DNA of 32,050 nucleotides from contig JAIDJJ010000217.1 of assembly GCA_029052265.1 (NCBI GenBank), positions 1 to 32,050 on the forward strand, written 5' to 3'. The position numbers were made by a program, and so were the translations under genes. Each line of letters begins with the position of its first letter. The first letter of the stretch is position 1. Of this stretch, positions 29,768 through 32,050 are shown one piece after another. Below the pieces are notes generated by a model that saw nothing but the letters and a program-made list of their open reading frames with translations, ran no database searches and was not told the origin of the DNA. The stretch is from Muribaculaceae bacterium. Its GTDB lineage: Bacteria; Bacteroidota; Bacteroidia; Bacteroidales; Muribaculaceae.

Positions 29768-31009
29768 TTAGTTTTTGAATTTGCCGCGCATTGCGGGTAT
29801 TGCATAAAATAGTACGGCACAATATGCCAAAGTCGGGACGATGAAGGAGGTCGACATGTTTGTCATACCTGCTACCCAACCCATAAGGAATGTACCGACG
29901 GCTCCTCCGAGTGGAGTCATCATGAGGAAAGAGGAAGCTATCTTGGTTGCGGAAGCACATCCGCTGATGGTGATTGCGAATATGGTAGGGAACATTATGG
30001 CTTCAAAAGCGTAGCACATGAACAGTCCTATCCTTGAGAGCAAACCGAGATCAAGTGTTACCAGCGCAGCCCCGATCACTGTCATCACAGCGCAGAATGC
30101 GAGAACTTTTTCAGCTTTTATATAGTTCATTATAGCGCTTCCCGCCACCCGGGCAAGAAGGAAAAGCCCCAGGGCTCCGAAAGAAAGAGCCCATGTCGCT
30201 GTTATTTTATCCATCCACCCATCTTCGGTGACATAATTGATAAACAGACTATTGATTGCGATTTCAGCTATTTCGTAACAGAAAAGGGCGAGCACTCCGC
30301 ATTTGAATCTGTTTGAACTCCACAGCCATTTTATGTTTCCACCAAGTGTGCGCTTTTCATTTGCCCCCGGGGCATCAGATTCATTCTTTATTTCCGGAAG
30401 TTTGACACGTGTGAATAAGAAAGCCACGAGGAGGACTATACATCCCATTATTGCATATGGGAGTGCCACTGAGCTTTCACCGTCGCCTGAGAACAGGAAG
30501 CCGCCCACGAGCACGGGCCCGAGGATGCATCCGAGTCCGTTGAATGATTGGGAGAGGTTAAGGCGGCTTGCAGCTTTTGCCGGGTCTCCAAGTTCAGCAG
30601 CATATGGATTGGCGGCGGTTTCAAGTACGGCAAGACCACATCCTATGATGAACAACGGGGCGAGGAAGAAACCGAAAGCCCCGATCATGTCTCCGGGGAT
30701 AAAAGCAAGAGCTCCGAGTCCGAATAGCAGTAGTCCGAACACTACGCCTCTGCGGTAACCATATTTTGTAATGAATATACCGGCGGGGAGGGCCATAAGG
30801 GCATAAGCCACATATGTGGATGCTTGCACCATAGTTGACTGGGCGACAGAGATCTCCATTGATTCCTGAAAATGCTTGTTGAGCACATCAAGTATGGAGC
30901 GGGCGAACCCCCACATGAAGAATAGGGACGTGATGAGGATAAAAGGCAGGAGATATGGGTTGGCGCCATTAGTGGAAGTCTTGGACGCCGTACATAAATT
31001 TGGTGTCAT
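29768..31009 (-). CDS. FucP-type sugar MFS transporter
   Basis: 12-TM MFS; ILITSLFFMWGFARSILDVLNKHFQ and CGLAVLETAANPYAAELGDPAKAASRLNLSQSFNGLG are typical of the FucP/GluP family. Confidence 0.92.
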   Translation of the reverse strand: MTPNLCTASKTSTNGANPYLLPFILITSLFFMWGFARSILDVLNKHFQESMEISVAQSTMVQASTYVAYALMALPAGIFITKYGYRRGVVFGLLLFGLGALAFIPGDMIGAFGFFLAPLFIIGCGLAVLETAANPYAAELGDPAKAASRLNLSQSFNGLGCILGPVLVGGFLFSGDGESSVALPYAIMGCIVLLVAFLFTRVKLPEIKNESDAPGANEKRTLGGNIKWLWSSNRFKCGVLALFCYEIAEIAINSLFINYVTEDGWMDKITATWALSFGALGLFLLARVAGSAIMNYIKAEKVLAFCAVMTVIGAALVTLDLGLLSRIGLFMCYAFEAIMFPTIFAITISGCASATKIASSFLMMTPLGGAVGTFLMGWVAGMTNMSTSFIVPTLAYCAVLFYAIPAMRGKFKN

Positions 31010-31095: not shown

Positions 31096-31120
31096 TAAAT
31101 CATTGACTCTGATAGTTGGG

Positions 31121-31232
31121 ATTAGGGGCATGGCGTTTCTCCGAAACGCCACGTGCAGAATGCATAAGGTAATTTTAGAAGTTAGTATTTTCGTTTGAGG
31201 GGGCGTCTCGGAGAGACGCCCTGTCCCTATTA
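31121..31232. repeat. REP doublet (BIME-like): two inverted REP copies separated by about 50 nt
   Basis: Plus-strand attaggggcatGGCGTTTCtcCGAAACGCC (31121-31150) and minus-strand aatagggacagGGCGTCTCtcCGAGACGCC (about 31202-31231) are the same ~30-nt element in opposite orientation. Confidence 0.85.
31123..31199. repeat. Direct repeat copy 1 (77 bp, identical to 31974-32050)
   Basis: taggggcatggcgtttctccgaaacgccacgtgcagaatgcataaggtaattttagaagttagtattttcgtttgag occurs at both positions. Confidence 0.97.
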
Positions 31233-31873
31233 GACGCGCTGTTCCGGTTTTCAAATTCAAAGCCACCTAAAGAGTAGTCTTCGGGTTTCAAATGAAGTGG
31301 GTTTCTGCGGATATAGTCCACGCAATTTCTATAGTGTTCATTATTTCTAATGATTCTGTCAAAAGGCTCGGATTGCCAAAGGCAACCGCTTCTCCCGGTC
31401 AGTTTGTTGATTTTTCGTGTCGTAAATCTGATGAATGATTTAAAGATACTTTTAACAGTGTGATCTTCTAATGGAATAATCAGAGCATGTAAATGATTTG
31501 GCATTATAACGTATGCAGTGATGATGTACCTTTCGTTGTCGAAATGTTCAAGAGAATCAACTGCTATCCTGCGTATTTCAGGATTCCCAAGAATACAGCT
31601 GCCGTAGCCGATATCCGAGAAGTTTTCCATAGCTGCATTAATCGTTTTATGATACAACTTTTTGATCTCTTCATTCCATGGTTGGGGGTATAGTTTTATA
31701 AATGCATCTTTTTTTGAGGTGTATTCTTTTAAAACAGTTTGAGGCATTGAATCCGCTAACCGTAATGTGACGAACTGAACTTTTCCAGCTTGTTCCCAAT
31801 GAGGAAGGTTTTTCCTGAATATATTTATATCCATATTCCTGTCAAGAAATATTTCGGAGTTTTCAAGTTCCAT
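31175..31873 (-). CDS. REP-associated tyrosine transposase (RAYT, Y1/IS200-like Transposase_17)
   Basis: HUH motif in YVIMPNHLHALIIP, catalytic-Tyr context YRNCVDYIRRNPLHL, and CLWQSEPFDRIIRN; flanked by REP-containing repeats. Confidence 0.93.
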   Translation of the reverse strand: MELENSEIFLDRNMDINIFRKNLPHWEQAGKVQFVTLRLADSMPQTVLKEYTSKKDAFIKLYPQPWNEEIKKLYHKTINAAMENFSDIGYGSCILGNPEIRRIAVDSLEHFDNERYIITAYVIMPNHLHALIIPLEDHTVKSIFKSFIRFTTRKINKLTGRSGCLWQSEPFDRIIRNNEHYRNCVDYIRRNPLHLKPEDYSLGGFEFENRNSASNRDRASLRDAPSNENTNF

Positions 31874-31973
31874 ATTATTAATGGATTATAAGGTTTTATT
31901 TATTATGTGCTAAAAGTATAAATTAATTTTAGATAAAGCAAGCTTTTACTGAATTTTGTAAAAAAAAATTTAA

Positions 31974-32050
31974 TAGGGGCATGGCGTTTCTCCGAAACGC
32001 CACGTGCAGAATGCATAAGGTAATTTTAGAAGTTAGTATTTTCGTTTGAG
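31974..32050. repeat. Direct repeat copy 2 (77 bp visible, cut by the window end)
   Basis: Identical to 31123-31199, offset 851 nt; contains the REP hairpin GGCGTTTCtcCGAAACGCC. Confidence 0.97.

Follow-up and report, generated by a model that had tools for sequence, protein, structure and literature searches.

The right end of a 32,050-nt stretch of Muribaculaceae DNA (hereafter the window) very probably holds a REPtron, in which a RAYT (TnpAREP) gene of predicted activity lies between two direct copies of a REPIN and may be subject to gain, loss or exchange at these repeats. The REPIN-bracketed arrangement is already known, RAYTs flanked by REPs or BIMEs having been described since the report in PMC2817692; gain, loss or swapping of the whole block between species at its repeats would be new for the family. 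Full and solo-REPIN alleles of the site, an empty outgroup and a tenfold drop in synonymous divergence from the REPIN onwards make such turnover directly testable. They also suggest a reason for the patchy distribution of RAYTs, from which their horizontal transfer has been inferred (PMC6006769).

Structure of the locus

Two copies of a direct repeat (31123-31199 and 31974-32050) are identical at 77 of 77 positions and lie 851 nt apart on either side of the RAYT gene, as the preliminary description had claimed; an exact repeat of this length is not expected by chance. The REP doublet claimed for the left unit was likewise found. This left REPIN (31122..31232) consists of two inverted REPs with outward heads around a short spacer, the outer stems pair when the sequence is folded, and the element overlaps the 3' end of the RAYT gene. 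REP1 (31122..31150, plus strand) has the head TTAGGGGCA, a stem of GGCGTTTC and GAAACGCC and the loop TCC, while REP2 (31202..31231, minus strand) has the head ATAGGGACA, a stem of GGCGTCTC and GAGACGCC and the same loop. In neither head, TTAGGGGCA or ATAGGGACA, does GT[AG]G immediately precede the foot of the hairpin on its 5' side, and this REP is therefore not filed in the GTAG-tagged REP superfamily. The head GTAGGGGC occurs in one diverged REP of the three species compared below.

The right REPIN (31974..32050, plus strand) does end with the window, but the window end is also the end of its contig, C132, so that 77 bp is a lower bound. Extension past position 32050, suggested in the preliminary description, led to a second contig of the same genome, C341, whose start overlaps the end of C132 by 50 bp (suffix to prefix) and supplies the rest of the right REPIN together with two further degenerate REPs (L008:1-194). 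The first part of C341 matches the left copy without a difference from 31150 to 31223 (74 bp), and the repeat is thus at least 101 bp long. REP hairpins accordingly stand on both sides of the RAYT gene, as is typical of RAYT/TnpAREP genes. The joined order would be an MFS transporter gene, a REPIN, the RAYT gene, a REPIN with two extra REPs and a DUF4421 gene. In C341 (L008:53-191) the REPs to the right of the RAYT gene number three, at C341:53, 109 and 164, all in the same orientation with a period of 55-56 bp, as in a tandem expansion, and two of the three have degenerate heads.

The RAYT gene and its product

The RAYT gene (31175..31873, minus strand) encodes a protein of 232 amino acids with the HuH motif PNHLH (H127 and H129), a single catalytic tyrosine (Y187, in YIRRNP) and W166 followed by Q. 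Residues H127, H129, W166, D172 and Y187 are invariant in an alignment of 22 sequences of relatives. The protein matched the NCBIfam model REP_Tyr_transpos (NF047646) at 63.3 bits (E 2.1e-17), below the 80-bit cutoff, which is an equivalog naming threshold and not a biological definition of RAYTs; a Pfam search of the protein gave no match. Its only PDB sequence match was 4er8, the E. coli TnpAREP (phmmer, E 6.7e-5). Similarly, an AlphaFold2 model (pLDDT 82) had 4er8 as its best fold match (E 5.8e-7, prob 1.00), at a TM of only 0.40/0.54, which is moderate, followed by IS200/IS605 transposases; the model thus has the TnpAREP/IS200 HUH-Y1 fold. The gene is present as a single copy per genome, as is usual for RAYT/TnpAREP genes. 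With invariant catalytic HuH and Tyr residues, 4ER8 as the best fold and relatives that carry their own flanking hairpins, the identity of the RAYT is well supported. The GC content of the gene is 37%, against 49% for the MFS gene.

The gene is bracketed by the repeats as first described, but it is not merely adjacent to them: its reading frame runs through REP2 and stops within the REPIN spacer (31175-31177), so that REP2 is translated in frame and encodes the C-terminal tail ...SNRDRASLRDAPSNENTNF (31178..31240, minus strand). The last 24 residues (209-232), mostly translated REPIN, are predicted to be disordered (pLDDT < 50). Similar read-through was seen in a few relatives (L033, L034, L029 and L032). 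A role for the REP-encoded tail as a conserved functional element was considered and rejected, since in most relatives the frame closes ahead of the first downstream hairpin, and disorder is predicted for the tail. In two Verrucomicrobia (L029:3001 onward and L032:3001 onward) the RAYT frames span the whole REP array and about 357 codons more, possibly as a fusion.

Carriage of the RAYT by phages or plasmids was also rejected; the searches turned up no viral contig and no phage match, and plasmids yielded only distant RAYTs (28-34% identity). In related genomes RAYTs are found in pieces (L017/L021 in G014:C163 and L020/L024 in G012:C107), one of them with an internal stop, which suggests that decay of the gene is common in the genus.

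The site in related species

Evidence for gain, loss or exchange between species was not visible to the preliminary description, which had the sequence alone to work from. The MFS (sugar) transporter gene that forms the left flank (29768..31009, minus strand) is syntenic in the related genomes G022, G115 and G061, and the orthologue in G115 matches Pfam MFS_1. The same RAYT also adjoins the MFS gene in G022, where the REPIN recurs on the DUF4421 side; REPINs are thus present on both sides of the RAYT in this genome as in the source genome (G000). In G115 the site reads MFS, a single decayed REPIN and the DUF4421 gene, and no RAYT was found in this genome, which is 96% complete. In the outgroup G061 about 180 bp separate the MFS gene from its neighbour, the DUF4421 gene, and neither REPIN nor RAYT is present. 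The left REPIN matches its own locus only in G000, its orthologue in G022 (96%) and the decayed orthologue in G115 (74%). Full, solo-REPIN and empty alleles thus exist at this site, as read from the assembled sequences.

Presence and absence at a defined site, together with the shared HUH-Y1 fold, could also describe an insertion sequence of the IS200/IS605 type that has hairpin ends and transposes as a unit. This is very improbable. The motif is the class-2 YIRRNP rather than the YxxxQ of IS transposases, and a single copy per genome was found rather than multiple near-identical copies. Further, two whole REPINs stand as direct repeats in place of distinct left and right ends, and the RAYT-less allele of G115 retains a REPIN.

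The source genome is a MAG of 2.93 Mb, fragmented into 693 contigs and 85% complete, and the right junction depends on 50 bp of overlap within it, so that assembly errors at the repeats are possible. The contig breaks off after precisely 77 bp of the repeat, the length expected of a node in a de Bruijn graph with k=77, and the assembly k-mer is the most likely cause of this abrupt limit. In G022, contig C74 begins with 275 bp of 60% GC DNA immediately upstream of the RAYT gene (L133:1-275), unlike the rest of that genome and with no plasmid or Pfam match; it may be a chimeric assembly or a foreign insertion. Both features would suit an assembly artefact, with chimeric joining at a repeat in metagenome assemblies producing the RAYT junctions and the 77-bp right copy. 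We regard this as improbable, because two separate MAGs agree on the order MFS, REPIN, RAYT and on a REPIN on the DUF4421 side, and because G115 and G061 independently have the MFS and DUF4421 genes as neighbours, as the joined contigs predict. This synteny in the relatives also supports the order obtained by joining C341.

Divergence of the block and its history

Between G000 and G022 the RAYT gene differs at 2 of 64 fourfold sites (3%), while the flanking genes differ at 27-52% of theirs: 70/222 in the MFS gene, 39/139 in a kinase gene, 31/114 in the 27960 ORF and 66/127 in the DUF4421 gene (RAYT against pooled flanking genes, Fisher p = 8e-9). Protein constraint is not the cause of this low divergence, since a neighbour gene whose protein is 99.4% identical still differs at 93 of 397 fourfold sites. 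Up to 31118 the two sequences differ at many positions, but from 31119 to 31962 at few, which places the boundary of divergence at the REPIN; the upstream or promoter region of the RAYT gene (31874..31973, minus strand) is 98.9% identical to G022 over 31874-31962. On the other side, the 52% fourfold divergence of the DUF4421 gene stands against 97.5% identity of the REPIN. A TTT variant of the left REPIN (31152-31154 region) is common to G022 and G115 but is missing in G000, and also in the right REPIN of G022, a pattern that hints weakly, over three sites only, at a crossover inside the REPIN.

The clean evidence for exchange comes from this one species pair. A second pair, L035/L036, is ambiguous: RAYT differs at 4/78 sites and the upstream gene at 40/193, but the downstream neighbour is also low (5/92).

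These comparisons suggest that the REPIN-RAYT block was recently gained, lost or exchanged at its flanking REPINs, in the manner of solo LTRs, and recombination at the flanking direct REPINs would be the simplest account of the three species. By analogy with studied relatives, the RAYT would be a single-strand HUH nuclease that recognizes an NTAG-type head and the REP hairpin in single-stranded DNA, and that nicks and rejoins the REP, with REPINs as its non-autonomous substrate. Direct orientation and a spacing of 851 bp would allow the two REPINs to recombine with each other; this would delete the RAYT and leave one REPIN, which would then decay, as in G115. Alternatively, the block may have been acquired or exchanged by recombination at a resident REPIN, and such an exchange is proposed to explain the recent common origin of the G000 and G022 blocks inside much older flanks. 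The catalyst may be the RAYT or host recombination, and the sequence fits either.

An ordinary, vertically inherited and domesticated RAYT is the main competing explanation. The block would be ancestral and lost in G115, its low divergence would be due to homologous recombination or chance, and the REPINs would have no role. RAYTs have been described as single-copy and vertically inherited (PMC8049555), mobility of the tnpAREP gene has been stated to be without evidence (PMC8266576), and recombination could have been anchored by a conserved 53-bp promoter to the left of the REPIN. Yet the change in divergence coincides with a REPIN on both the MFS and the DUF4421 side, and chance is excluded by the Fisher test. 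We consider vertical inheritance possible but less probable than turnover at the REPINs.

A broader proposal, which we put forward tentatively and think somewhat doubtful, is that in gut Bacteroidales the RAYT modules are themselves mobile genes: the REPIN-RAYT-REPIN unit would spread between species and be lost by host- or RAYT-catalysed recombination at direct REPINs to give solo-REPIN alleles. On this view REPINs would be passengers of the transposase gene and, in addition, the sites at which it docks and is excised.

Relation to known systems

The locus resembles the RAYT/TnpAREP REPtrons of E. coli (yafM), Stenotrophomonas and Marinomonas (REPtrons Ma and Mb) in its HUH-Y1 protein, in a gene flanked by REPs or BIMEs and in gene-specific REPs; as in Marinomonas, the REPs are locally concentrated near tnpA (PMC8266576). 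Unlike in these REPtrons, the head is NTAG (TTAG or ATAG) 5 nt from the stem and not GT[AG]G at the stem foot. Two whole REPINs in direct orientation, a very low number of REPs and comparative evidence of block exchange also set it apart.

The NHxH, WQ and YIxxNP motifs and the occurrence in Bacteroidetes are shared with TnpAY1 subclasses 2.4, 2.6 and 2.7; Bertels groups 4 and 5 correspond to subclasses 2.4 and 2.6 (PMC6006769). In-frame insertion of REPs into the gene is a known trait of subclass 2.4, and subclass 2.6 has atypical REPs that lack GT[AG]G. Here, however, the in-frame REP lies in the C-terminal tail and not between HuH and Y, which does not fit subclass 2.4, and the HuH-Y spacing is about 60 amino acids, against medians of 88 (2.4) and 82 (2.6). 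At the E100/H101 positions the protein has D and R, which recalls subclasses 2.5 and 2.7, and the motifs are mixed across subclasses.

A gene between direct repeats and a one-repeat, gene-less allele in a sister species recall solo LTRs and composite elements lost by direct-repeat recombination, although the repeats here are 0.1-kb REPINs and no retroelement is involved. Loss of a RAYT with decay of its REPs has been proposed before (PMC3686654).

REP copies across genomes

The genome-wide count called for in the preliminary description was made with pattern, BLAST and covariance-model searches. With up to three mismatches the REP occurs at six sites in G000, divided equally between C132 and C341 and all part of this locus; the exact REP was not found elsewhere in this 85% complete genome, and among 60 relatives the REP core was carried by G022 only. 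Relaxed searches with the covariance model and the head-apex pattern, which keep the same head and a constant head-apex spacing, added two diverged sites in G000 (C540 and C573), as well as C4, C8 and C13 in G022 and C2 and C47 in G115. Control genomes of the same genus gave no match with this head-apex spacing. Dispersal of the REP across G000 is thus only weakly borne out; this lineage has a very small REP population, nearly all of it at the RAYT locus.

The preliminary description had set its reading of a RAYT/REP (BIME) system against a REP found beside this gene and nowhere else. For the exact sequence this is nearly the case, and a BIME-style genome-wide family is unsupported here; the identity of the RAYT is not thereby overturned. 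The HUH-Y1 protein, the private hairpins on both sides and the possession by each related RAYT of its own REPs all stand. In most other Bacteroidales and Verrucomicrobia RAYT relatives private hairpins likewise flank the gene on both sides, and in two of the RAYT-bearing relatives the cognate REPs are dispersed (57 in G070 and 51 in G099; range given, 50-57) and genome-private, with hardly any matches in the other genomes searched. As a family, these elements behave like RAYT/REP systems.

Two of the diverged copies, G000:C573:1188-1226 and G022:C4:21431-21469, are an orthologous decayed solo REP located just after a MutS2/Smr-like gene, which is evidence for an old dispersed REP. In addition, REPs or REPINs lie in or at a gene of the O-antigen ligase (Wzy_C) type in G022 (L226:1515-3242 on C8 and L228:1123-1815 on C13) and G115 (L229:3-512 on C47). 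These have the same head with different stems, and they add peptide segments in frame, leaving the reading frame unbroken.
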